Source: Candidatus Gastranaerophilales bacterium
Lineage (GTDB): Bacteria > Cyanobacteriota > Vampirovibrionia > Gastranaerophilales > Gastranaerophilaceae
Assembly (NCBI GenBank): GCA_944326525.1
Contig: CALVEG010000005.1
Coordinates: forward strand, 1 to 64,000
DNA length: 64,000 nt
Direction: 5' to 3'
Shown: positions 11,190-36,038 of the stretch, one piece after another
Layout of the letters: the number at the start of each line of letters is the position of its first letter
Numbering within the stretch: position 1 is the first letter of the stretch
Position numbers and translations under genes: made by a program
Notes under the pieces: generated by a model
Seen by the model: only the letters and a program-made list of their open reading frames with translations
The model's database searches: none
Told to the model about the DNA's origin: nothing

Positions 11190-13250
11190 TTATTCTTTTT
11201 CTTTTAAAATATCTGCATAGTGTTGTAGCTTGTCAAGCAGATATCCGTATTGATTGTAAAGCTCTTCGCGCTTTTGCTTGATTTTTTGATCTTTATCAGC
11301 ATCATTTTTTACTGAATCCATATATGCGACAAGCTTGCCGTCTATTGATGCTTGTACTGCTGTTTTTAATATTTCAGGCATGTTCAATGCTGTTGGATTA
11401 TCACTGGATAGATTTTCATAATATTTGTCAAGAAAATCAGGTGCTATTCTTTCTCGCCAGTTAATCTTGTTTGCGCTTCCGCCGATGTTGTATGAAAGTC
11501 CTGTTTCTGTTAAGCCTAAAATATCTGCAAATGATATTTGAATTTTTTCTTTCGTCATTAATTCTGCAAATTTTGCATCTACGATTGCTTTATCGGCTTT
11601 TTCCAGCTCATCACCTGTTTTGGGTTTGCCATCTTTTATGTCAGATATCTTGTTGCAAAATTCTGAACTTTCTTTAACCCTTTGGGGATCTTGATTTAAG
11701 TAGCCTGCTAAATACAATGCATTCCATGCTTTATGATTTCTTAAATTGTCTCCGTTATCTTTCAACAAGCTTAGTATAGGAATTGAGTCGTGTGAGCCTA
11801 GCAGATACCAATTGCTGTCGTTGCCAATGAAGTCTTTGGCTCTTGCATAATCAAGCATAATTAGCTGTGGCAAGTGGTGTTTTCCATAATAAATATCTTT
11901 GAATAATGCGGGTTCACAACATATATGTTCCCAAACAGGGTCGTTTTGTTCTAGTCCGCGTTCTTCTTTTAATGTTGGAAATACAATTCTTTCTAATATT
12001 CTTGGATAATCGAAATGTGTATCCATTGGAGCGCCGTTTTCGTCAAATAGTCGCGACATGAATCTGCCGTATAATTTGTCTTTAATCTGTTTGCCGTTTT
12101 CGTCATATTCTACTGAATCTCCACGATACACAAATGGCTCAATTAATCCCATAGCATGGTCTATTCGAGTGTTTTCACAGTTCTCTAATGCGTGTTTTAT
12201 TTTTTCTTTTAAAAATTGTCCGCCGATATTTAATTCGTTTTCTCCGATATATAGCATTCGCGGATTTAATACGTTAACACCCCAAGTTTGGTGTGCTCTG
12301 TTTGGATCCCATTCCGGGGCGCCCATATAATAGCCTTTTAAAAACGCTTCCTTATAACGCCAGTAATCCATTTTAGAGTTTCCGACCAATAAGTCAGAAT
12401 TGTATTTGAATCCTATTTTATCTCTGAATTCTTTATTCTCTTTTATTTGTTTTGTTACAATAAACTGTTCAAATTGATATTGTTCAATTGCGTTTTTAAA
12501 TCTTTTTTTCAAAGATGCATAATGTTTTATTGCAGAAGGATTTTCTTTTCGTAGATTTACCATAAGGTCAGAATCTTGTTTTTCCCAATTGTCGCAATCT
12601 TCGTCGCCATATAATGTCGATAATACTCGATAAATTCCTTCTTCTTCTGTTTGTTTGCCTTTTTTAGCCAAAAAAGCTTCAAATTCTTTGTTTAATTGGA
12701 TTGCTTCAGGCTGACCTTTTGCAAGGTTTGATTTAAATGTTTTGTAGCTTTCTGTTAGTGCGCGATAATATACAATTTTTGCTTCAGAAAAGTCTGTAAA
12801 TCTATAATCTTTGTCATTTGCTTCTGCTGGAATTGTTAAATTTTTATAGCTTTCTTCCGATAAAATTTTTCCGTACTTCTCGGTTGTTAGTGGTTTAAGG
12901 TCTATGAATAAAATGTTTTCGTTAAGGGCTGAAGCATTGTATGGTGAATAATTTTTGTCATCATACAAAATCATGCCTGTCGGACCTAATTGGTTTCCGT
13001 TAAAACCGTATAATTTTAAAAATTTTATCCATTCTGCGGCTCCTTCACCGTAAGGAGAGCCGATAAAAGAATCTCTGCCAACAGCAGGAAATACTGATCC
13101 GTGTGTGATTGCTAAGCGCTCTTTAACTCCGGCAGCTTTAAATCCTTCTTCCATTGTTTTTTGAAGGTCTGCCTCTTCGTCTTTTCTCGGACGTCTGCCA
13201 AAGGTTGTTGATTGGCTGTGTATTTGACTGTTTATTCCTGTTACGCGCAT
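11190..13250 (-). CDS. malQ: 4-alpha-glucanotransferase-like enzyme (GH77), divergent
   Basis: A 686-residue amylomaltase-like enzyme, expected to transfer alpha-1,4-glucan chains in glycogen or maltodextrin metabolism. The nucleophile segment TRIDHAMGL is near residue 360 (family: RIDHFRG) and the late Asp lies in LLGSHDS near residue 481 (family: GTHDN). The acid/base Glu may be the one in CCEPALF, where the usual AEDLG is not conserved. The N-terminal ~20 residues (M-R-V-T-G-I-N ... T-T-F-G-R-R) carry the recurring signature rather than a normal MalQ start. It is monocistronic. The catalytic class is fairly sure; substrate preference is not. Confidence 0.75.
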   Translation of the reverse strand: MRVTGINSQIHSQSTTFGRRPRKDEEADLQKTMEEGFKAAGVKERLAITHGSVFPAVGRDSFIGSPYGEGAAEWIKFLKLYGFNGNQLGPTGMILYDDKNYSPYNASALNENILFIDLKPLTTEKYGKILSEESYKNLTIPAEANDKDYRFTDFSEAKIVYYRALTESYKTFKSNLAKGQPEAIQLNKEFEAFLAKKGKQTEEEGIYRVLSTLYGDEDCDNWEKQDSDLMVNLRKENPSAIKHYASLKKRFKNAIEQYQFEQFIVTKQIKENKEFRDKIGFKYNSDLLVGNSKMDYWRYKEAFLKGYYMGAPEWDPNRAHQTWGVNVLNPRMLYIGENELNIGGQFLKEKIKHALENCENTRIDHAMGLIEPFVYRGDSVEYDENGKQIKDKLYGRFMSRLFDENGAPMDTHFDYPRILERIVFPTLKEERGLEQNDPVWEHICCEPALFKDIYYGKHHLPQLIMLDYARAKDFIGNDSNWYLLGSHDSIPILSLLKDNGDNLRNHKAWNALYLAGYLNQDPQRVKESSEFCNKISDIKDGKPKTGDELEKADKAIVDAKFAELMTKEKIQISFADILGLTETGLSYNIGGSANKINWRERIAPDFLDKYYENLSSDNPTALNMPEILKTAVQASIDGKLVAYMDSVKNDADKDQKIKQKREELYNQYGYLLDKLQHYADILKEKE

Positions 13251-13300: not shown

Positions 13301-14776
13301 TTAAATATTCGCAACAATTTCTATCCCAAAATTGCATCCGATTTCTTCACGGGTAAGTACAACTATATTATTTAGATAGTTCGATAAAAGCGTGAAAAAT
13401 AAATGTCTTAATTCCATCGGTACAAGGATTTTTATCTCTTCTAACCCTAATTGAGATGCTTTTTTAGCTATTTTATTTGCTAATTTTTCCGCATAATCAC
13501 CGTCAATTTTGATTATAAAATCATCATCTTCCTCAAATCCCGGCATGAATGCATCAAGAGTTTTGTCTGAAATTTCTATTAAACTTATTATTCCGTTTTC
13601 GTTTGCATAGTTTGCGCAAATCCTTCTGGATAGCGATAGGCGAACTTTCTTTAATAAATCTGATTTTGCTCCCTGCTCTGCGTAATCGTTCATTTTTTCA
13701 AACAGATAATTGATATCTTTTATTGAAACTCGCTCTTTTATTAGGCTTGTTAGTATAAATTTCAAATCCGAAAGGGTCATAAAATCTGGAATTAAATTCG
13801 CTACCAAAAACTCATTGTGTCTGCTTACAACATCAATGTATTTTTCAATGTCAGAATAATCAAGAAGTTCATCTACATATTTTACAGCAACATATTCCAG
13901 CGCTCTTGCTATGTATTCAGCTCCGTTAATCCCTTTTTCCCAAAAGTCTTTTGTCTTACTTTTTTCTATCCATACTGTCTTTTTGCCTGTTATTAAATCC
14001 GTGTCATATATTGAATTTTTAATCTTGTTTTCCAAATGCAAGTCGTCTGCAAAATACATCGTATAATTCGGATAAACACATGCTCTATATACTTCCATTC
14101 CTCGAATTTTTATTGCAAATTCATAAGGATTTAAATTTTCATCATCTTGAAAAACTACTTTTGGAATTATATAACCAAGTTCTTCTGTTAAATTTAGTCT
14201 TACTTTTACAGTTTCAGCCAGAAGTGTTTCTTGCGTGTTTTCAGATTCGTTTTCTACATATTCAATAAGTTCTTCACTTAAATAAATCGCAAGTTTTTCT
14301 TCCGTAAGTTTTTCAAACATTACATCAGGTGAAGTCGTTTTGGCAAGTTTTATTTTTAAGTCATCCAACTCTTTCAGATTTGCCGAAATTTTATCATTTA
14401 ATTTTTTGCGGTTCACTGATGCCGGAGCTTCTTTTTCTAATTCTGTTTTAATTTTAGAAATTTTATTCTGCTGGCTTTTAATCTTTGACTGAATATCAAG
14501 GCAGGCTTCGTATGGCGAAAGCTTTGGAGACAGCATTTTTTCCATCTGGCTTTTGAAGGTCGAAATGTTTATGACATCTGAAGTTACATTATCTTCTTCC
14601 TGAGTTGATTCGCTCATAAAAATGCAGTTGAACTTTATACCTTCATCGGTTTCTGTTTCATTCATGCTGTAAAGTTCCCAACCATTCATTGACATTTCAT
14701 TTAAAAGATTTTGAAGCTCTTGCATGTTGTCACCCGAACAGGTTTTTATTATGTACTGCATCTTTTTGTTAAACAT
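13301..14776 (-). CDS. Soluble FlhA/SctV C-terminal-domain protein with DUF4177-like N-terminus
   Basis: A 491-residue protein. Residues ~6-52 (YIIKTC...LLNEMSMNGWELYSM) resemble DUF4177, and ~75-155 is a coiled-coil linker. From ~180 to the end it reads like the cytoplasmic domain of FlhA/SctV, the export-gate ring of flagella and type III secretion: ELGYIIPKVVFQD, IRGMEVYRACVYP, TGKKTVWIE, NLIPDFMTLSDLKFIL, LIKERVSIKDINYLFE, and a closing NNIVVLTREEIG equivalent to the family's VLSYxEI. The eight membrane helices of FlhA are absent. A GGAG site precedes the ATG, 3 bases after udp, so it is in the udp operon. No other export-gate gene is nearby. Domain identity is recalled from family sequences. 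Confidence 0.78.
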   Translation of the reverse strand: MFNKKMQYIIKTCSGDNMQELQNLLNEMSMNGWELYSMNETETDEGIKFNCIFMSESTQEEDNVTSDVINISTFKSQMEKMLSPKLSPYEACLDIQSKIKSQQNKISKIKTELEKEAPASVNRKKLNDKISANLKELDDLKIKLAKTTSPDVMFEKLTEEKLAIYLSEELIEYVENESENTQETLLAETVKVRLNLTEELGYIIPKVVFQDDENLNPYEFAIKIRGMEVYRACVYPNYTMYFADDLHLENKIKNSIYDTDLITGKKTVWIEKSKTKDFWEKGINGAEYIARALEYVAVKYVDELLDYSDIEKYIDVVSRHNEFLVANLIPDFMTLSDLKFILTSLIKERVSIKDINYLFEKMNDYAEQGAKSDLLKKVRLSLSRRICANYANENGIISLIEISDKTLDAFMPGFEEDDDFIIKIDGDYAEKLANKIAKKASQLGLEEIKILVPMELRHLFFTLLSNYLNNIVVLTREEIGCNFGIEIVANI

Positions 14777-14779
14777 ATC

Positions 14780-15556
14780 TTACTCCTGATTTTTGTCTTT
14801 TTTGATTAAAATTCTTAAAGCTTCGATTGCTGTTTTTATTGCTTTGTCTGTGTCATGAAAAACAGGATTTTCTAAACCCGCTTTTTCTCTTTCTTGATTT
14901 GCTACGGTCAAAAATACAGAGCCTACCTTGACTTTCAATGCGCTTGCAACAACAAAAAGTGCGGCTGACTCCATCTCGGAGGCTTTGCAGCCTAGTCGTT
15001 TCCAAGCTTCCCATTTGTTAATAAGTTCGTAACTTACGGGCGACTTCTCCGGACTGTGCTGTCCATAGAATGAATCTTTGCACTGTACGATTCCGGCATG
15101 GTAATCATTGTTTAATTTTTTGCAAGCTTCTACAAGTGCATTTGTAATATCAAGATCTGCTACAGCAGGAAATTCTATCGGTGCATACTCTTTTGAAGTC
15201 CCTTCCATTCGAACGGCTCCCGTTGCAACTACTATATCGCCGCCTTTGACATCAATATCTATCCCGCCACAGGTTCCGACTCTGATAAATTTCTCTGCTC
15301 CAACTTTTACAAGTTCTTCTAATGCAATTGATGCTGAAGGACCGCCTATACCGGTTGAAGTTACCGTTACTTTTTCACCGTCAAGATAGCCGGTATATGT
15401 AGTGTATTCTCTTCTGTCAGCTATTAATTTCGCATCATCGAAATATTCGGCAATCTTTTGGCATCTTTTCGGATCTCCAGGTAAGATTACATATTTCCCT
15501 GCATCGCCTTCTTTTAAGCCAATATGATATTGTTCGCCATTCTGTGAATATTTCAT
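14780..15556 (-). CDS. udp: Uridine phosphorylase
   Basis: A 258-residue nucleoside phosphorylase that splits uridine with phosphate to uracil and ribose-1-phosphate in pyrimidine salvage. Family landmarks are the phosphate-binding LPGDPKR (about residue 25), STGIGGPSA (about 67-75), RVGTCGG (about 91-97) and SEMESAALF (about 193-201). Length matches bacterial Udp. An AAAGGA ribosome binding site precedes the ATG. It lies 26 bases after ompH and just before the FlhA-domain gene, in a minus-strand run. Confidence 0.9.
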
Positions 15557-15582: not shown

Positions 15583-16032
15583 TTAAGGCATTGTTTTTAG
15601 TTTTTGTATAACTTGATCTGTTATATCAACTCCACCAATAAATACTGCATTGTAATCAAGTATTGCATCAAGTTTTTGTTCTACAAGTACTTGTTTTGCT
15701 GCTGCTTGAATTTTGTTGTAAACCTGCTCGCCTTTTTGTGCTTGAAGTTTCATTAAGGCTTCTTGTTTTGCATTAAATTCTCTTGCTGTTGCATCTTCAA
15801 AATTCTGTTTTTTTAGTGGTGTATCTAATGCTTTGTATTGTTTTTCTTTGTCTACCATATACTGTTGAAGTTCTAGACGTTTTGCATCAAGTTCTTTTAC
15901 AGCAGATTGTGCAAACGCATAATTTTCTTGAACTTTTGTATAATTAATATAACCAACTCCGCCCGCAATTGCTTTGCTGCTTAAACCGCACATCATTAAA
16001 ACCAATGCTGCTAATGCAAGATTTTTTTTCAT
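15583..16032 (-). CDS. OmpH/Skp family periplasmic chaperone
   Basis: A 149-residue protein with a Sec signal peptide (MKKN... to SSKAIA-G, about residues 1-23). The body is a charged coiled coil with the Skp/OmpH pattern VGYINYTKVQENYAFAQSA at its start and ITDQVIQKL at its end. Skp-type chaperones hold unfolded outer-membrane proteins in the periplasm. It lies 23 bases downstream of bamA with a strong AGGAGGT site, the same order (bamA-skp) as in many Gram-negative bacteria, although lpx genes do not follow here. Confidence 0.88.
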   Translation of the reverse strand: MKKNLALAALVLMMCGLSSKAIAGGVGYINYTKVQENYAFAQSAVKELDAKRLELQQYMVDKEKQYKALDTPLKKQNFEDATAREFNAKQEALMKLQAQKGEQVYNKIQAAAKQVLVEQKLDAILDYNAVFIGGVDITDQVIQKLKTMP

Positions 16033-16055: not shown

Positions 16056-18353
16056 CTAATATATTAAATCACCTACACCAAAAGTAAAGTATCCGTTCGG
16101 ATTTCCGTTTGATCCAGGATTGGTGAACGGAATACCGTAGTCAATTGATAATGGTCCCATTCCAGGTATGTACAATTTCAAACCTACACCGGCTGATATT
16201 GCTTCAAGAGGTCTGTCGTATAGTGTGTTTGTAATTGTTGGGTTAAATATTTTACCTGCATCAGCCCATACTGTAAATCTGATATTGTTTAAGAAATTAA
16301 CTTTTCTTGCAAGTCTTGTTCTGTCCAAAAATGGAATTGGTGTTGCAAATTCTGCTGAACCCATAATGAACGATTCACCAGTACCAACTCCGCTCATCTT
16401 GAAGCCTCTGATTGTGTATGGACCACCTAATCTGTACATCATTACCTCTGGCATATCATCTCCGTGAATTCTACCGCCACCTTTAACTGTGAATGATAAT
16501 GATGATTTTTTACCCATCGGTATGTAATGCTTGAATGATCCGGTTAACTTTCCGTGGGTTTTGCCAAAATCTATAAGTCCTATTTCTTCATCAAATCTTA
16601 AGCTTGCGATAGTACCTTTTCTTGTAACTGTTCCGCCTTCTCTTGTGTCAAAGATAAGGGCAGGACTTAATGACATAAATAATCCGCCGTCAAGTTGCTT
16701 TGCACGTTCTTCGATTGGAATATTATATTTTTGGTACAAACTTGCAATTTTATTGAAATCACCTTCGCTTACGTCAATATTTTCGACGCCAAGTGAGAAT
16801 GTTGATGTAAGATGTCTGTTGCGTTTTACCCTGTGTGCAACCGTAATCTCGCCCCCAACTCTGCGTTCAATTGCAAGCGGAACCTGATAGCTGCCGAAAT
16901 CTCTGTAAAATAATTTGCTCATCAATGATGTATCGGCATTAAAGAAATATGGTTCAAAGAAACTTAACTCAACTTGAAGGTTCATTCTTCGCATTATTGA
17001 TGCATCGTTTAAGATTACACCTGAACCTACAAGTCCGTTTAACGAAACTCTTTGGTTGCGGCCTCTGAAGTTGTTGTCAGCTATACCAAGTGATCCGAAT
17101 ACACCTGTTACTGTATCAAGACCACCACCTATTGATATATTTGCGGTTCTCTGTTCTTGAACATTAATTGTAATATCATAGGTGTCTGGCATGTCTTCAC
17201 AAGGTGTTATTTCTCTTGTTACATCTTTGAAGGCTTGTGATGCATAAAGTCTTACAATATCTTCTTTCAAAATGTTCTCATTATAAACCATGCCAGGTTC
17301 TGAAAGCACGTTTCTTTCAATTACAAAATCTTTAGTCTTTTCGTTTCCGGCTATTAAAATTCGGTTTATTGTACCTTCTTTTATGCTTATGTTTATTGTT
17401 CCGTCCGGATCATCAGTTACAGAATCTATACGCGCAAGTATGTAACCTTTTGATGCATAACACATTTGAATCTTTTCTATTGCTTCATTAAGTTTTGCAA
17501 TATTTTGAGGTTTCCCTTTCATATCTATCAGGTATGAAAGAATTTCTTCATTTGATACAACTGTGTTACCTTCTATCGTAAAATCGGTTACAGGTGCATT
17601 CTCTTCCAAAATGATTTTAAGAGTAATCGTTCCGTCCGGGTTGTTTACAGGTATGGCTCTCATCTTTTCACTGAAATAACCCATTTGATAGATGTTTCTT
17701 AAATCTTCCTGAACTGTTTCTCTGCTGTATATCTGGCCTTTTTTCTGTTTTACCTGCTGTAAGATAAGTTCTGGAGATATTACATTCGCTCCGTGAATTT
17801 CAATATCTTTAATATATTTGTCACTGCGTGTTGTGCCCCTTGATACAGCTGGTGTTTCATTGTCCTCGTACTGGCTGAAACCGTAATTTAAATTAGGCTC
17901 TTTTTCATTATCTGAATATTCTTTGCTTGTATCTGTTGTATCGGATGTTGGAACAGTTTGAAGTTCAATTTCTTCTTCAGATTGAAGTTCATTGTTCTTT
18001 TTGTTTCTGTGAAAAATATTTGTAAACCAATTCCCTTGTTTTTCGGATGTTTCAAAAGTTGGGGCAGCTTCGTTGATAGCTTGATTTTCTTCTGTCGTTA
18101 AGACTGAATCTTTTGCTTGTTTTTCTTTTTTTAGTCTATTTTTTCTTTCTCGTCGGGTTTCTTTATGGGTTGTTTTTTCTGTAGCAGAAAGTTCCGGCTG
18201 TTGCTCGTATACATATCTTTCAGCCATCTCACTTCCCGTTGTGTCCATGGAGTTGTAATCCCATAGACTGTCAGCCCCAACACTTGTTAACGGATATAAT
18301 GTCATTAATGATAATGATATTATTATTGGATATATGATATTCTTTGATTTCAA
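16056..18353 (-). CDS. bamA: Outer-membrane assembly protein BamA (Omp85 family)
   Basis: A 765-residue Omp85 protein. A hydrophobic N-terminal segment (about 7-24, ending VGA-D) acts as signal peptide. Residues ~30-170 are a low-complexity charged linker. POTRA domains span about 175-400 (IKDIEIHGANVISPELI, VTDFTIEGNTVVSNEEI, INRILIAGNEKTKDFVI). The beta barrel occupies ~410-765, with the RGFKMSGVGTGE motif (VRGF-type) near residue 654 and a final strand ending FGVGDLIY. It inserts outer-membrane beta barrels. The reading starts at a TTG with a GAGGA site about 10 bases upstream. The long linker before POTRA is unusual for proteobacterial BamA. Confidence 0.93.
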   Translation of the reverse strand: MKSKNIIYPIIISLSLMTLYPLTSVGADSLWDYNSMDTTGSEMAERYVYEQQPELSATEKTTHKETRRERKNRLKKEKQAKDSVLTTEENQAINEAAPTFETSEKQGNWFTNIFHRNKKNNELQSEEEIELQTVPTSDTTDTSKEYSDNEKEPNLNYGFSQYEDNETPAVSRGTTRSDKYIKDIEIHGANVISPELILQQVKQKKGQIYSRETVQEDLRNIYQMGYFSEKMRAIPVNNPDGTITLKIILEENAPVTDFTIEGNTVVSNEEILSYLIDMKGKPQNIAKLNEAIEKIQMCYASKGYILARIDSVTDDPDGTINISIKEGTINRILIAGNEKTKDFVIERNVLSEPGMVYNENILKEDIVRLYASQAFKDVTREITPCEDMPDTYDITINVQEQRTANISIGGGLDTVTGVFGSLGIADNNFRGRNQRVSLNGLVGSGVILNDASIMRRMNLQVELSFFEPYFFNADTSLMSKLFYRDFGSYQVPLAIERRVGGEITVAHRVKRNRHLTSTFSLGVENIDVSEGDFNKIASLYQKYNIPIEERAKQLDGGLFMSLSPALIFDTREGGTVTRKGTIASLRFDEEIGLIDFGKTHGKLTGSFKHYIPMGKKSSLSFTVKGGGRIHGDDMPEVMMYRLGGPYTIRGFKMSGVGTGESFIMGSAEFATPIPFLDRTRLARKVNFLNNIRFTVWADAGKIFNPTITNTLYDRPLEAISAGVGLKLYIPGMGPLSIDYGIPFTNPGSNGNPNGYFTFGVGDLIY

Positions 18354-27817: not shown

Positions 27818-28060
27818 ATGGATTCAGACAATCAACAATTCGGTTATTCCGAAGATTTAATAGCGGAACTAGAATATAAACTTGGAGATTTGTTATCTCA
27901 CATTAAACTATTATCCAATGCGACCGTCGGATTGGGAGCAGATTTTTCATTCGATATTAAAGATATCAATTCGATTAGTCAAACACTTCATGATAAGGCG
28001 GTCAATTCTCTTTTTGTGGTTGAAAAATTAAAAGCTTCTTTAGGGCATTTAAGTGTTTAA
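27818..28060 (+). CDS. Small helical protein, convergent with fliI
   Basis: An 80-residue acidic, helical protein (ELEYKLGDLLSHIKLLSNATVGL; then SISQTLHDKAVNSLFVVEKLKASL). Its stop codon overlaps the end of fliI by 4 bases on the opposite strand. The gene has a perfect promoter, but only a weak CAGG ribosome binding site. Small size and all-helix character recall export chaperones, but no sequence evidence supports that. Unknown function. Confidence 0.55.
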   Translation: MDSDNQQFGYSEDLIAELEYKLGDLLSHIKLLSNATVGLGADFSFDIKDINSISQTLHDKAVNSLFVVEKLKASLGHLSV

Positions 28061-29403
28061 ATTTCAATATCTTTCATCATATCGACAAGTGTGTTTATGG
28101 TTGTATCCATACTTACGATATCGGAAGTTCTCTGTTGCAGGAACGCATTAATTTTCGGCATCAATTCGATTGCAATATCAAGTCTGGGGTTTGTTCCTGG
28201 TTGGTACATACCGACGTCAATAAGGTCTTTGTTTTCTCTGTAAAGTGCCATAATCGTACGCATTTTGCCCGCAGCAGCCTTATGTTCAGGTGTAACAATC
28301 GAGGACATAAGCCTTGAGATACTTCCAAGAACGTCAATTGCCGGATAGTGGTTCATTTCGGCAACCTTACGTGAGAGGAAAATGTGTCCGTCAACAATAC
28401 CTCTTACGATGTCGACTATAGGGTCAGAGATGTCGTCACCTTCCATTAAAACTGTATAAAGAGCTGTGATTGAACCTTTCGGACTGTTTCCGGCTCGTTC
28501 GAGAACTTTTTGAAGCCAAGAAAATATTGATGGCGGATAACCTTTCATAGTCGGAGGTTCGCCGATAGAAAGCCCTACTTCTCTGCCTGCCATAGCGCAA
28601 CGGGTTACGGTGTCGGTCATAAGAAAAACTTTTTTCCCTTGATCTCTGAAATATTCGCAAACAGCAGTTGCGGCTTGAAGTGCTTTTTGACGGATTAATG
28701 GCGGCTGATCGCCTGTTGAGCAGACAAGAACAGACTTTTTCATACCTTCTTCGCCAAGGGCATCTTCGACAAATTCTTTAACTTCTCTTCCACGTTCTCC
28801 GATGAGGGCAACGACGTTAACATCAGCATCCGAGTTCCTTGCAATCATACCGAGAAGCGTACTTTTTCCGACACCTGAGCCTGCAAATAACCCCAAACGC
28901 TGTCCGCAACCCATTGTCATACAACTGTCGATTGCTCTTACGCCTGTTGAGAAAACTTCTGTGATAATCGGTCTTTCAAAAGGTCCCGGAGGCGGGCCTT
29001 CAATAGGACGCCAGGTGGCTCCTGTTGTGTCAAGCGGTTTTCCGTCTATCGGTTCTCCCATAGGGTTTATTAGTCTTCCAAGAAGAAAATCTCCGACCGG
29101 AATGATAATCGGTTTTCCCATTGATGTTACAAGACTTCCTTGTCCTATCCCGTTTCCGTCAAGAAGAAGCAGCAGTTGAGCAGCTTCACCTTTAAAGGCA
29201 ACAACTTCGGCAGGTTTCTTTTCGCCTGATTCTGTTTCAATATAGCATAAATCCCCGATTTTAAGTCCCGGAAGCTTTACCTCTACTGTTAAGCCCAAAA
29301 GTTTTGATACTGTTCCTTTGAACTTGAAAAGGGTTGTTTCATTAAGTTTTGATTTAACCCGTTGTTTTAATTCTGTAAGTCTGCTGTCATCAATATTCTG
29401 CAT
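28057..29403 (-). CDS. fliI: FliI/SctN-family ATPase (flagellar or type III export)
   Basis: A 448-residue AAA+-like ATPase related to F1-beta. Walker A is GLFAGSGVGKST (about 166-177) and Walker B is VFLMTDTVTRCAMAGRE (about 248-264). IGEPP, GYPPSIFSWLQKVLERAGN and DGHIFLSRKVAEMNHYPAIDVLGSISR are FliI/SctN family blocks. N-terminal beta-barrel residues 25-95 are present. In flagella and injectisomes it unfolds and delivers substrates to the FlhA/SctV gate. No other export gene adjoins it; a soluble FlhA-domain gene lies ~14 kb away. The promoter TTGTTT-17-TATAAT ends 6 bases before the ATG, so the message is likely leaderless. Confidence 0.92.
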   Translation of the reverse strand: MQNIDDSRLTELKQRVKSKLNETTLFKFKGTVSKLLGLTVEVKLPGLKIGDLCYIETESGEKKPAEVVAFKGEAAQLLLLLDGNGIGQGSLVTSMGKPIIIPVGDFLLGRLINPMGEPIDGKPLDTTGATWRPIEGPPPGPFERPIITEVFSTGVRAIDSCMTMGCGQRLGLFAGSGVGKSTLLGMIARNSDADVNVVALIGERGREVKEFVEDALGEEGMKKSVLVCSTGDQPPLIRQKALQAATAVCEYFRDQGKKVFLMTDTVTRCAMAGREVGLSIGEPPTMKGYPPSIFSWLQKVLERAGNSPKGSITALYTVLMEGDDISDPIVDIVRGIVDGHIFLSRKVAEMNHYPAIDVLGSISRLMSSIVTPEHKAAAGKMRTIMALYRENKDLIDVGMYQPGTNPRLDIAIELMPKINAFLQQRTSDIVSMDTTINTLVDMMKDIEI

Positions 29404-30999: not shown

Positions 31000-31497
31000 A
31001 TGAAAAGAATTATACTTCACTGGACGGGCGGAGGGTATTATCCTACGGCTGTTGAGAAAGAATATTACCATTTTTTGGTAGATGCAGAAGGTAGAGTTTA
31101 TAAGGGGAAATTTCGACCGGAGGACAATCTTGTTTGCAAGCCTCATAGTTATGCTGCGCATACGGGCGGTGGTAATACAGGTTCAATTGGTATTGCGTTG
31201 TGCGGAATGCAGGGGTATAAGGATTGTCGGGTTGTTGGCAAGTACCCAATCACTCTTGCACAATTTGAGAAGGCTATGAAATTAGCTGCATATATTGCTT
31301 GTAAATATAAGCTGGTTGTTGATAGAACAACGGTTATGACACATTACGAATTTGGAATAAAGCATCCTGCTACTTCAAGTTATGGCAAGCCGGATATAAC
31401 TTTTATTCCAGCATACCCTTGGGTAAGTAAAAATGAAGTCGGAGATTTTATCCGCTCAAAAATAAGGTGGTACAAAACAAAAATGAAAGAGGTTTAG
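31000..31497 (+). CDS. N-acetylmuramoyl-L-alanine amidase (endolysin type)
   Basis: A 165-residue Amidase_2/PGRP-fold enzyme that cuts the amide between muramic acid and the peptide stem. Zinc-site features: LHWTGG at residues 6-11, the HSYAAHTGGGNTGSIGIALCG block (split over about 49-69) and a late KHPATSSYGKPDI segment (about 126-138). It has no signal peptide, as in phage endolysins, which rely on a holin. An AAAGGACA site precedes the ATG. It stands in front of the structural genes, an unusual place for a lysis gene. Confidence 0.88.
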   Translation: MKRIILHWTGGGYYPTAVEKEYYHFLVDAEGRVYKGKFRPEDNLVCKPHSYAAHTGGGNTGSIGIALCGMQGYKDCRVVGKYPITLAQFEKAMKLAAYIACKYKLVVDRTTVMTHYEFGIKHPATSSYGKPDITFIPAYPWVSKNEVGDFIRSKIRWYKTKMKEV

Positions 31498-31499
31498 TT

Positions 31500-33023
31500 A
31501 TGGAAACAGATTATTACAATTTATCAGGCGGAATTAATCTTGCGCTAACTAAAACAGAACTCGGAATTGACACAAAAAAAATGTACTGGTCAGACAGCAA
31601 AAATGTTGAAATATACAAAAACCGAGGAGTTTCAAAACAATTGGGAAATACCCAGATTTGTGCAGTTCCGAATAATGAAGCCATAACAGGACTTCATGAA
31701 ATGTTTTATAGGGATGATTCTAAGCTTGTTATAACAACAGAATCCGGAAAAATTTATGTTTTTAACCCGATAAATAATGCTATGACATTGTTAAGTTCAA
31801 AAACATTAAAAGGTAAAAAACCGCGATTTGCATCATTTTTAAACGGTGTACTTTGCATAACAGAAAGTGATGGTTTGTTTTATATAAAAAATGATTCAAC
31901 GTATAGTGTTGTAGATTGTAACTTAAAAAATTCATCAGGCTTAACAGTAACAGGAGATGTTTTAACCGTTTACAAAAGCCGAGTGTGGGTTGCAAGTCAG
32001 TCAACAATATATTATTCAGCGCTTGGAACTTATAATGATTTTACAAGTGATGATGATGCCGGTTATATAAGTGATTTTCATACAGATACTGCGGAAATTA
32101 CGGCATTAAAGTCTTATAAGGATTATTTAGCGATTTACAAAAAAGATAAAGTATATCTTTTGACAGGAACGAGTCCTTCAGATTTTGCAATTGTTCCTTT
32201 TGCAGATAGAGGAACTGTAGCACCGAGATGTGTTGCAAATGTAGATAACAAACAGTATTTTTTATCTTCAGGTATTTTTGCTCTTGAGCAGGTTGGCGAG
32301 CTTAACCAAATTCAATTAGGCTCTGAAATTTCACTGAAAATCAGACCGGAATTTGACAGTTTTGATAAAAGTAAGTTGTCGGAATCTATTTGTGTTCATT
32401 ATGAAAATAAAAATCAAATGTGGTTTTTTATACCGTATGCTACACAAGATTATTATCAAACAATTTGGATTAATGATTATGTAAATAAAGCTTGGTACAA
32501 GCGAGTTGTACCTCAAAATATTACAACGGCTGGAATTTTTGAAGATTATGTAATTACGGGAGATGCCAGCGGTAAAATTTACAGAGAAAATTACGGTTCG
32601 ACATTTAACGGAAAAGCGATAGATTTTATGTGGAAATCTCCGTTTTTATCAATAGGTTCTCCTCACCACAGAAAAGTAATAGATGAATTTTACTTTATTC
32701 TTGATGATGCATATGATAATAATTTTAACTTTTCGGTATACAAGGATTATGACAGCCAACTTAGTGATGATCCGGAAAAAATTTATTCGGTTCATTATGA
32801 TCAATTAATCTGGGCAGATGACAATACTTCTGATAATCTTCCTTGTCATTGGACTCCGGACGATGCTGATGTGCCAGTTTGGCCGGCAAACAAGGATGTG
32901 CTTGAAAAGGCAGAAATTTCCGAATCAAATTATGCAATTCAATTATGTGTAGAAGGTTCAGAAGAAAATGAGAATGTTGCAATAATCGGTTTGCAATTTA
33001 GAGAAATTTATAACGATGATTAG
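31500..33023 (+). CDS. Phage beta-propeller tail / DNA-stabilisation-like protein
   Basis: A 507-residue protein. I chose the ATG at 31500 (AAAGAGG site) over an upstream GTG inside the amidase gene. The sequence is a series of beta-strand repeats with YxxGxxxxxF-type blades (LVITTESGKIYVFNP, LAIYKKDKVYLLTG, YVITGDASGKIYREN). It has the overall look of podovirus tail-knob or P22 gp10-like connector proteins. An N-terminal NLSGGINLALTKTELG segment is common in such phage proteins. Function is inferred from fold pattern and position before the coat gene. Confidence 0.65.
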   Translation: METDYYNLSGGINLALTKTELGIDTKKMYWSDSKNVEIYKNRGVSKQLGNTQICAVPNNEAITGLHEMFYRDDSKLVITTESGKIYVFNPINNAMTLLSSKTLKGKKPRFASFLNGVLCITESDGLFYIKNDSTYSVVDCNLKNSSGLTVTGDVLTVYKSRVWVASQSTIYYSALGTYNDFTSDDDAGYISDFHTDTAEITALKSYKDYLAIYKKDKVYLLTGTSPSDFAIVPFADRGTVAPRCVANVDNKQYFLSSGIFALEQVGELNQIQLGSEISLKIRPEFDSFDKSKLSESICVHYENKNQMWFFIPYATQDYYQTIWINDYVNKAWYKRVVPQNITTAGIFEDYVITGDASGKIYRENYGSTFNGKAIDFMWKSPFLSIGSPHHRKVIDEFYFILDDAYDNNFNFSVYKDYDSQLSDDPEKIYSVHYDQLIWADDNTSDNLPCHWTPDDADVPVWPANKDVLEKAEISESNYAIQLCVEGSEENENVAIIGLQFREIYNDD

Positions 33024-33082
33024 CTCCGTTCATTTTTTATAACAGTATTTACACTATTAAGCCAAGAAAGGGAAATGAAATT

Positions 33083-33946
33083 ATGGCAGAAACAAATTCT
33101 TATTCAGTTTTTATTCCGGAAATATGGAGTGCAAAATTGAACAACATGCTTGAAAAAGAGTGTGTAATGCTACAGTGTGTTAACAGAAATTACGAAGGTG
33201 AAATTAAAAATCAGGGCGACAAAGTGAAAATTATAACTCCGGCTCCTGTGACAATTTCTACACTCACAACAAGTTCAATTACATACAATGAATTAGAACC
33301 GACATCAACAGATTTAGTAATTGATCAGAAGAAGTTTTTTGCATTCAAAATCAATGATGTAGCACAGGTTCAGTCAAATTCAGACATTATGGAAGCTCAT
33401 TTACAGAATGCCAAAAATGCTATAGAAGAAGTTCAAGATGCTTATCTTTTATCAATGCACGCAAATGTTGATGAAAACAATATAGTTGGTTCAGAATCAG
33501 TTCCTGTAACACTTGACAAGACTACAATTTATGAAAACTTTGTAAATCTTGCAATGAAACTAAAAGACTCAAATGCGGTAAAAGCAGGAAAGCGTCCTTG
33601 GGTTGTAATTAACCCGCTAGTTGAATCTTATCTTCTTCAAAGTACAGAATTTATCGGAGCAAACAATGTTGCGGATGAAACATTAAGAGAAGGTGCGATT
33701 GGACGAATTGCCGGCATGGATGTTCTTGTAAGTACAAATCTTACACCTGTATCAAACAATTACTATATTATGGCAGGAACAAACGATGCAATAACATTTG
33801 CCTCACAGCTTGCAAGAATTGAAAGTTTGCGAGATAAAGACAGTTTTTCAGATTTAGTCAGAGGTCTGTACTTATACGGTGCAAAAACTGTACAGCCAAA
33901 AGCTTTGGCAAAAATGGTAGTAAAAGATCCGAATGCTGAAGAATAA
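33083..33946 (+). CDS. Major capsid (coat) protein
   Basis: A 287-residue phage coat protein of HK97 fold, P22-coat-like/T7-like class. It shows FIPEIWSAKLNNMLEKE near the N-terminus, VKIITPAPVTI (about 49-59), FFAFKINDVAQVQS (about 89-102), WVVINPLVESYLLQS and AGMDVLVSTNLTP (about 213-225). No prohead protease or delta domain is visible. A GGGAAATG site precedes the ATG. It is followed by a scaffold-like gene rather than preceded by one. Confidence 0.85.
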   Translation: MAETNSYSVFIPEIWSAKLNNMLEKECVMLQCVNRNYEGEIKNQGDKVKIITPAPVTISTLTTSSITYNELEPTSTDLVIDQKKFFAFKINDVAQVQSNSDIMEAHLQNAKNAIEEVQDAYLLSMHANVDENNIVGSESVPVTLDKTTIYENFVNLAMKLKDSNAVKAGKRPWVVINPLVESYLLQSTEFIGANNVADETLREGAIGRIAGMDVLVSTNLTPVSNNYYIMAGTNDAITFASQLARIESLRDKDSFSDLVRGLYLYGAKTVQPKALAKMVVKDPNAEE

Positions 33947-34029
33947 GAATAGAGCAAAAGTTTAAAACTCAAAAGTATTTAGAGGTTTAAGCTTTGTATG
34001 TAAATCCAGAACAAATAGGAGAAAATTAG

Positions 34030-34749
34030 ATGTTAAACAACAATGCAGCAAATCAAATTTCATCGACTGCCGCAGTCCAACAGCAAGGTTTGATGAATAA
34101 TAATCCGATGCAAGGTCAGATTTCGGGTGCAATGTCTGCAATGCCTAACAATACAACGGGTAGTCCTAATGCAATAAGACAAGCATTGATGCGTGATATG
34201 AGTATCATAAACAGTCTTATGCAATCAGGTGTAATAAACTCGGTACAAGGACAACATTTGATGAACTTCATCATAAACAAGGCGCAATTAGAGTCAACAA
34301 GGCAGCCGCAGACACAAACTTTCACCCAGTTGTCGCAAAATCCTCAAACGACAATTCCGCAAGGAGGAATTGTTTACGGGATAGAAGCGTTCTTAAAAGA
34401 AAATCCAGACTTTTTTAACAAGAATGGCAGAAGCCGCGTGTTGGAATATTTAAAGAAATCGAACTCTGTTGTAGACAAAGATGAAATAATGCAGATAGCC
34501 GAACTGGTCGAAGCCCTAGAGCAAAGTGCCGTAGACGGATATTTGCAAACACAGGCGCACGAGAAATCAATAAATGACGAAAACAAGGCCGCCAAAGCGA
34601 AGTTGAGAGCGAATGCACAAAATTCAAATACGGCAGATGCAAATGCGAAGGTATTTACTCGTGAGCAAATCGGCAGAATGAGCGGAGCAGAATTTGCCAA
34701 AAACGAAAAAGCAATAATGGAACAGTTAAGAAACGGCTTAATCCGATAA
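34030..34749 (+). CDS. Phage scaffolding-like protein
   Basis: A 239-residue hydrophilic protein. Residues 1-110 are Asn/Gln/Ser/Met-rich and probably disordered. Residues ~115-200 are charged helix (FLKENPDFF, IAELVEALEQSA). The C-terminus FTREQIGRMSGAEFAKNEKAIM is a basic helical end like coat-binding ends of scaffold proteins. It lies next to the coat gene. An AGGAG site is 10 bases upstream. Identity is inferred from composition, C-terminal motif and position. Confidence 0.65.
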   Translation: MLNNNAANQISSTAAVQQQGLMNNNPMQGQISGAMSAMPNNTTGSPNAIRQALMRDMSIINSLMQSGVINSVQGQHLMNFIINKAQLESTRQPQTQTFTQLSQNPQTTIPQGGIVYGIEAFLKENPDFFNKNGRSRVLEYLKKSNSVVDKDEIMQIAELVEALEQSAVDGYLQTQAHEKSINDENKAAKAKLRANAQNSNTADANAKVFTREQIGRMSGAEFAKNEKAIMEQLRNGLIR

Positions 34750-34769
34750 TAACGGCAAATTTAGAAAAT

Positions 34770-34798
34770 CTTACGGGCGGGTTAAGCCCGTCCGCAAG
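34770..34798 (+). terminator. Hairpin between scaffold and adaptor genes
   Basis: CTTACGGGCGGG pairs with CCCGTCCGCAAG over 12 base pairs (two G-U). The T-tract is weak (ATTTATT), so it may be a processing or attenuation site. Confidence 0.5.
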
Positions 34799-34826
34799 AT
34801 TTATTAAAAGACTCGAGGAGAAAAAT

Positions 34827-35465
34827 ATGAATTATTTTGATTTGGTTAACAAATGTTTGGTTGAACTTAATTACAAACAAGTCAATGCATTTTCCGAATT
34901 AACTAAAAATGATCATAAAAAAATAAAAAACATAATAAATTTGGTAAATACGGAAGTATGTAATTATGACAATTGGGATTTCAAATTAAGGAAAATGACG
35001 ATTAATCTTCCGCCCAAAACATCAGAGTTGGACAATCCTATAGACGGAAGAATAGCATCATTGGTAATAGACGGGCATGTGTACAAATATTTTGACAAAC
35101 CCGAAGTATATATAAATGGGGATGCTCCTTCTAAAACGTGGGGAAGATTTAATGACAAGCTTTTGCTTCCTGAATTTGAAGAAGAAAAAAGTATAAATAT
35201 AGTTTACTACACGGCAAATTCAGCGGTAGACACGGAAGGGAATGAAAAGAAATATTTGGAAAACGAAACCGACAAATCGCTAATTCCGGAAATATTTGCA
35301 GAATCAATTTTGGTTTACGGTACTTGTATGCGCTTAAAGGCAAATCCGCAGCATGTAAAATTCGGATATTGGATGAGCATGTTCAATAGTGCCTTGGCGA
35401 CCATGCGTGCAAAAATTAAAATTGATGCTGAGGCGGCACCCTATGTAAATATGCACAGATACTAG
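34827..35465 (+). CDS. Head-completion/adaptor protein (P22 gp4-like)
   Basis: A 212-residue protein with the pattern of phage head-to-tail adaptors: an N-terminal helical part (FDLVNKCLVELNYKQVNAF; then IKNIINLVNTEVCNYDNWDFKLRK) and a beta-rich middle (IDGRIASLVIDGHVYKYF). A C-terminal helix follows, with SILVYGTCMRLKANPQHVKFGYW. The NxEVxxxxxWDFxxR feature is common in podovirus adaptors. A GAGGAG site precedes the ATG. Role inferred from these features and from the neighbouring coat and portal genes. Confidence 0.65.
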   Translation: MNYFDLVNKCLVELNYKQVNAFSELTKNDHKKIKNIINLVNTEVCNYDNWDFKLRKMTINLPPKTSELDNPIDGRIASLVIDGHVYKYFDKPEVYINGDAPSKTWGRFNDKLLLPEFEEEKSINIVYYTANSAVDTEGNEKKYLENETDKSLIPEIFAESILVYGTCMRLKANPQHVKFGYWMSMFNSALATMRAKIKIDAEAAPYVNMHRY

Positions 35466-35603
35466 GTTTTAGAAAAATTGCATAAAAAAAACAGGAAGTT
35501 TTCATTCCCCCCTGTTAAGATTTACACTAGCCGAAATATAAATAGCAATATTATTATACAATTTTTTTTCAAAAAGTACAAACTTTACTAAGAAATGTAA
35601 ATT

Positions 35604-36038
35604 ATGGACAGATTAACACAACAACAAAAACGATTTGTAATCGAATATATAAAATCGCTGGATGGTGAACTATCGGCGCAAAAGGCGGGATATAAATCTA
35701 AAGATTTGAAATTAATTTCGAATACACTTCTTTCTAACAAGCTTGTAATAAATGAAATAAAAGAGCAGTTAAAGAATCAAATATCGTCATTGAGAGTAAA
35801 CAAAGGTTACGTAATTCAGAAACTTTTGCAGATAGCGGAGTTTTCGCTCGAGGAGGAGGAAGTTCTGGATAAAGAGGGAAACTTGACCGGAAAGAAAAAA
35901 TTACGTGATACATCCGCTGGTTTAAAGGCGTTAGAAAGTCTTTGCAAATATCTTGGATTTAATTCAGATAACGAAGAAACCGAATATAGGCAGGCGAAAA
36001 TTATTACGATTTCAAATCTGGACGATGACAAAATTTAA
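35604..36038 (+). CDS. Terminase small subunit
   Basis: A 144-residue Terminase_2-type protein. LTQQQKRFVIEYIKSLDGELSAQKAGY (split over about 4-30) is the typical N-terminal helix-turn-helix start. VNKGYVIQKLLQIAEF and GLKALESLCKYLGF (about 111-124) match the family's C-terminal helices. It recognises phage DNA and positions the large subunit. It is separated from terL by ~2.7 kb, which is unusual. No clear Shine-Dalgarno sequence precedes the ATG. Confidence 0.82.
   Translation: MDRLTQQQKRFVIEYIKSLDGELSAQKAGYKSKDLKLISNTLLSNKLVINEIKEQLKNQISSLRVNKGYVIQKLLQIAEFSLEEEEVLDKEGNLTGKKKLRDTSAGLKALESLCKYLGFNSDNEETEYRQAKIITISNLDDDKI

Follow-up and report, generated by a model that had tools for sequence, protein, structure and literature searches.

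A soluble paralogue of the FlhA ring domain, conserved across Gastranaerophilales and possibly serving a filament-less export machine

An open reading frame with an ATG start (13301..14776, minus strand), described in an earlier note on a 64,000-nucleotide stretch of contig CALVEG010000005.1 from a Candidatus Gastranaerophilales bacterium (hereinafter the window), codes for a 491-aa protein, here called C, that is a complete FlhA/SctV cytoplasmic domain without the transmembrane half and with a new N-terminus. C is old, near-universal in Gastranaerophilales and under strong purifying selection. Our preferred reading, to which we give roughly four chances in ten, is that it is a soluble paralogue of the FlhA-B ring domain, dating from the Gastranaerophilales stem, that serves a filament-less export machine as a docking or regulatory component. 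In flagella and injectisomes, cargo docks on the FlhA ring and is sorted there; with a natural soluble version of this domain whose chaperone site is rewritten, the assembly of the ring could be separated from the docking of chaperones. C has been kept through the entire history of this gut order and points to a flagellar export machine lacking a filament in common gut bacteria.

An FlhA cytoplasmic domain with a new N-terminus

Sequence profile searches matched residues 135-480 of C to the Pfam FHIPEP family (E 1.2e-48; 166.6 bits against a cut-off of 29.1), the match covering positions 321-653 of the 657 in the profile, that is, the cytoplasmic half only; the N-terminal membrane domain with its FHIPEP loop is accordingly absent. 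The NCBIfam FlhA and SctV models also match C, with scores well under their equivalog cut-offs (for TIGR01398, 150.9 bits, short of the equivalog score of 772 bits), and FlhA_C chains in the PDB match it by sequence with E-values down to 9e-27. An AF2 model built from 37 orthologues (pLDDT 80, pTM 0.64) recovered FlhA_C structures in a Foldseek search, a check that the earlier note had proposed (6ch2_C, E 1.6e-21), and VIA superimposed the model on the nonameric 7amy_A with Z 30.0 over 329 residues at 2.8 A. Profile, model, Foldseek and VIA thus agree on the four-subdomain FlhA_C fold, with D1-D4 at residues 161-491 (13304..14296, minus strand) and the dimple positions at D260, T263, R291 and A292. 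We found no membrane-spanning segment in C, in which no 19-residue window has a hydropathy above 1.6 (versus 73 such windows in the full-length FlhA of the same genome), and the proposal that the ring domain of an export gate has lost its membrane tie is borne out. Nor does a membrane half adjoin C, its neighbors being udp upstream and malQ downstream. The missing membrane half, and nothing more, would suit a split or decaying ordinary FlhA; the genome encodes an intact 701-aa FlhA elsewhere, and the order-wide conservation of C with dN/dS values of 0.02-0.05 leaves that explanation practically no room, so that we consider it ruled out.

The region N-terminal to the FlhA_C domain comprises a β-α-β-β domain at residues 1-57 (14606..14776, minus strand), followed at residues 71-147 (14336..14566, minus strand) by helices including a predicted helical hairpin (residues 88-115 and 121-147). 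W33, L35, Y36 and the stretch C51-I52-F53 are invariant in an alignment of 84 orthologues, which were collected via N-terminal patterns, so that N-terminal conservation in this alignment is biased upward; the N-terminus is also well conserved in an independently collected orthologue set. The fusion to a DUF4177-like domain claimed in the earlier note thus stands as regards a new N-terminal domain, whereas the family label falls below threshold: DUF4177 (PF13783) matches C with E 0.015 and 16 bits, under the Pfam gathering cut-off of 25 bits, and reaches E < 0.1 in 27 of 37 orthologues. The two share a GWEL-type motif and a predicted small α/β fold, and the relation, as far as sequence goes, is only a resemblance. 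A second DUF4177-like gene was not found in the genome, and the N-terminal model has no relative in the PDB at E <= 0.001 (best E 3.6e-3). PadR-like structures were rejected as relatives, the alignment with them running mainly via the helical hairpin.

Between the hairpin and the ring domain, residues 148-166 (14279..14335, minus strand) align with the NPNRMYERL linker of full-length FlhA; P150 and M153 are invariant, and Y/F154 is present in 83 of the 84 orthologues. In Salmonella FlhA, the linker residue Trp354 packs against the adjacent subunit and drives ring formation, and D456, F459 and T490 form the chaperone-binding dimple (PMC8166844; PMC8213127). M153 and Y/F154 fall at the aligned place of Trp354, in an alignment that may be off by one. 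At the dimple, the register of which was confirmed via an F459A mutant chain included in the alignment, D456 is kept in 83/84 orthologues, F459 is replaced by T in 78/84, T490 by R/K in 76/84, H491 by A in 64/84 and G368 by S in 83/84; of the D456/F459/T490 triad, therefore, C retains D456 alone. The dimple substitutions, taken with the invariant P150 and M153, make C look like a ring-type domain in which the canonical chaperone site has been rewritten. Relative to the FlhA/SctV cytoplasmic domain, C keeps the four-subdomain fold, a putative linker anchor and a VSIKDI-type motif in D3, but differs in its lack of a membrane half, its added N-terminal domain and hairpin, its replaced dimple residues and the location of its gene outside the fli/flh operons.

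FlhX-type proteins are soluble homologues of the FlhB C-domain that are thought to substitute for it, and the parallel with C is that a membrane protein of the export gate has its cytoplasmic domain retained as a separate soluble paralogue. The gate protein concerned is a different one, and C stands apart by its additional conserved domain and its distribution over the order. A comparable spare-part role, with C standing in for the cytoplasmic domain of FlhA within the gate, would suit the retention of all four subdomains. It appears very improbable given that the C-domain of the full-length FlhA in this genome is intact, with D/Y/T/H as its dimple residues, while C combines a different dimple with an additional N-terminal domain on which selection is strong.

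Near-universal distribution and relation to FlhA-B

Counting a best match below 1e-70 as C and matches of about 1e-39 as full-length FlhA only, we found C in 184 of 191 genomes of the family and in 156 of the 160 of good quality. It is absent from six genomes (G002, G003, G079, G089, G180 and G189), and a seventh, G031, is without any match; these absences may be assembly gaps, and a genus mate of G002 carries C. The sister family f2 has C at 40% identity, whereas C is missing from f3, which belongs to a sister order in that class and encodes FliP and a full-length FlhA (FlhA-B). Genomes with and without flagellin alike encode C, and its dN/dS against five relatives is 0.018-0.046, with several of the dS values near saturation. 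Matches on plasmids looked like ordinary FlhA.

In our most careful phylogenetic tree, C forms a single group (support 100/100) that joins FlhA-B of Gastranaerophilales with a support of 90/74; in a tree with more soluble proteins, long-branch rows included, the same placement receives 97. A grouping with type A, the flagellin-associated FlhA, was rejected by the AU test (p-AU 0.0014), and where more distant classes have a second full-length FlhA, this forms a lineage separate from FlhA-B of Gastranaerophilales. The most favored position of C is that of an offshoot of FlhA-B, at moderate support and with long branches involved. FlhA-B, encoded in the cluster fliE-fliF-x-fliH-flhA, is both the closest relative of C in the tree and the bearer of the same linker block; in contrast to C, it is a full-length membrane protein with ordinary dimple residues. 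Identity between the two is highest in D3 (0.39) and D1a (0.34) and lowest in D4 (0.18) and D2 (0.16). C would have arisen in the Gastranaerophilales stem, most probably via duplication of FlhA-B, the membrane half of the copy being replaced by the small α/β domain and the helical hairpin.

A filament-less export machine and other soluble FlhA_C proteins

The genome encoding C (assembly of 1.95 Mb, 98.5% complete) was searched for FliP/Q/R, FlhB and a full-length FlhA, as the earlier note had advised, and all were recovered. The flhA gene lies downstream of those for FliE, FliF, a 353-aa protein in the fliG position and FliH; FlhB and FliI are also encoded, and genes for a FliM/N-like protein and FliO adjoin those for FliP, FliQ and FliR. 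Rod proteins, FlgE/F/G-like proteins and a weak FliK-like match are likewise present; no flagellin was found in this genome, which has one FliP. The protein in the fliG position (L093 17014-18075) has no FliG match in Pfam. Among 50 genomes, FHIPEP matches comprised full-length type A in 19, full-length type B in nearly all and C in 43, with a contig end truncating it in two. FliP occurred in all 45 genomes searched, and flagellin in exactly 16 of these 45, namely those with two good FliP copies. Since a single FliP and no flagellin go together with FlhB, FliI, FliO, rod and hook genes, type B is the marker of a filament-less export system of flagellar type, and this set is more than a decayed flagellar copy because flagellated relatives hold both sets. 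Incomplete flagellar gene sets in non-motile members have been reported earlier and treated as non-functional or decaying flagella (PMC4040986; PMC3787301), with two flhA genes listed for ACD20 (PMC3787301), yet such partial sets coexist with a complete second set in flagellated relatives. A tie of C to a reduced secretion system, as the earlier note had envisaged, holds up in spirit: a filament-less export apparatus is present, and the tree favors C as a paralogue of the FlhA belonging to it. Several kb upstream of fliE-fliF-fliH-flhA, a segment of the same locus (L093 6730-9968; G000:C1) codes for 522-aa, 273-aa and 108-aa proteins, the first of which starts MGMAASQARYLGLTARKTNVEYEGQQINQAR; these are possible substrates of the filament-less system.

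Other FlhA_C proteins, membrane-free or anchored anew, occur in the phylum. Some Gastranaerophilaceae, mostly flagellated, encode forms of 215-294 aa without D2 and D4, and one genome (G013) has a 593-aa fusion in which the N-terminal domain known from the fliG-position protein (E 9e-15 in a single comparison) is combined with a hydrophobic helix and FlhA_C. In another class (G193; L140 9315-10556), a 413-aa protein fuses HTH_17 (E 1e-11) to FlhA_C (FHIPEP E 7e-49) beside fliP, fliR and flhB. This fusion, together with the recurrence of soluble FlhA_C with variable N-termini, invites the view that C acts outside the gate as a regulator, titrating substrates, chaperones or FlhA-B subunits and coupling the export state to expression. 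We regard that as rather improbable: C has no recognized DNA-binding domain, its N-terminal model found no significant structural match, and the HTH fusion belongs to a different lineage in the tree. These cases suggest that the FlhA_C module has been released and reused repeatedly in linkage to export, which does not in itself prove the role of C. A literature search covering few subscription papers found no soluble FlhA paralogue or type III system in these bacteria. More tentatively than the preferred reading, soluble FlhA_C proteins might be unrecognized, repeatedly evolved co-factors of flagellum-type export in non-photosynthetic Cyanobacteriota, with C a near-obligate part of an order-wide filament-less machine for secretion or surface assembly. 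Soluble FlhA_C-like proteins of several different kinds, 330-620 aa in length, were also seen in high-GC members of the phylum, each of these genomes having more than one (G204, G207, G217 and G219; loci L139, L141-L147 and L150). Additionally, a 109-aa open frame (G193:C57 26761-26979) matches the C-terminal part of FlhB only (profile 262-335), as an FlhX-like soluble FlhB_C.

Gene neighborhood and the role of C

The earlier note had placed C far from any export gene in view; this is mistaken, as the window codes for FliI, the type III export ATPase of the filament-less system (28057..29403, minus strand; 547 bits against a cut-off of 379.5), 13.3 kb from C. The spacing is 13-14 kb in five close genomes, and C and FliI share one contig in 8 of 32 genomes, in some close genera only; the linkage is one of neighborhood, with no operon. 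Immediately around C, on the minus strand throughout, lie udp for uridine phosphorylase (14780..15556, 3 bp upstream of C), genes for an OmpH/Skp-like periplasmic chaperone (15583..16032) and a BamA-like outer-membrane assembly protein (16056..18353), both conserved neighbors, and downstream a malQ-like 4-α-glucanotransferase gene (11190..13250), conserved in most genera read. A synteny check in relatives, also among the steps recommended at the outset, found the BamA-Skp-(Udp or Pdp)-C-malQ context stable, with the exception of the distant members G032 and G321.

This stable context, the altered chaperone dimple and the absence of C from export operons would fit an exaptation independent of secretion, in which C forms a soluble ring or scaffold with BamA, Skp and the nucleoside phosphorylase, for example in envelope assembly or nucleoside salvage. 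We think this unlikely, though worth weighing: in G032 and G321 C lies apart from its BamA, Skp and phosphorylase neighbors, no genome was encountered that had C but not the export apparatus (FliP being universal in the genomes searched), and the structures give no evidence for an envelope or scaffold role. Against an export co-factor, in turn, stand the lack of any operon shared by C and an export gene, the presence of FlhA-B and FliP without C in f3, a support for the C plus FlhA-B grouping that is short of decisive and involves long branches, and conserved neighbors that point to envelope biogenesis and nucleoside salvage. On the preferred reading of C as a soluble docking or regulatory part of the filament-less export machine, it would still make subunit contacts of the FlhA type via D1, D3 and the putative linker anchor, either by itself or with FlhA-B, and its N-terminal domain, rather than the altered chaperone dimple, may recruit a client or partner to the gate.

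The slot directly upstream of C, compared between the window and loci L014, L027, L029, L032 and L138, is occupied by uridine phosphorylase in most genomes and by a pyrimidine-nucleoside phosphorylase-like gene (435-440 aa, with an STGGVGDK motif) in others, an apparent non-orthologous displacement. Elsewhere in the window, positions 31000-36038 hold a run of plus-strand genes that, judged by eye, looks like a prophage (amidase-like, structural and small-terminase-like genes).
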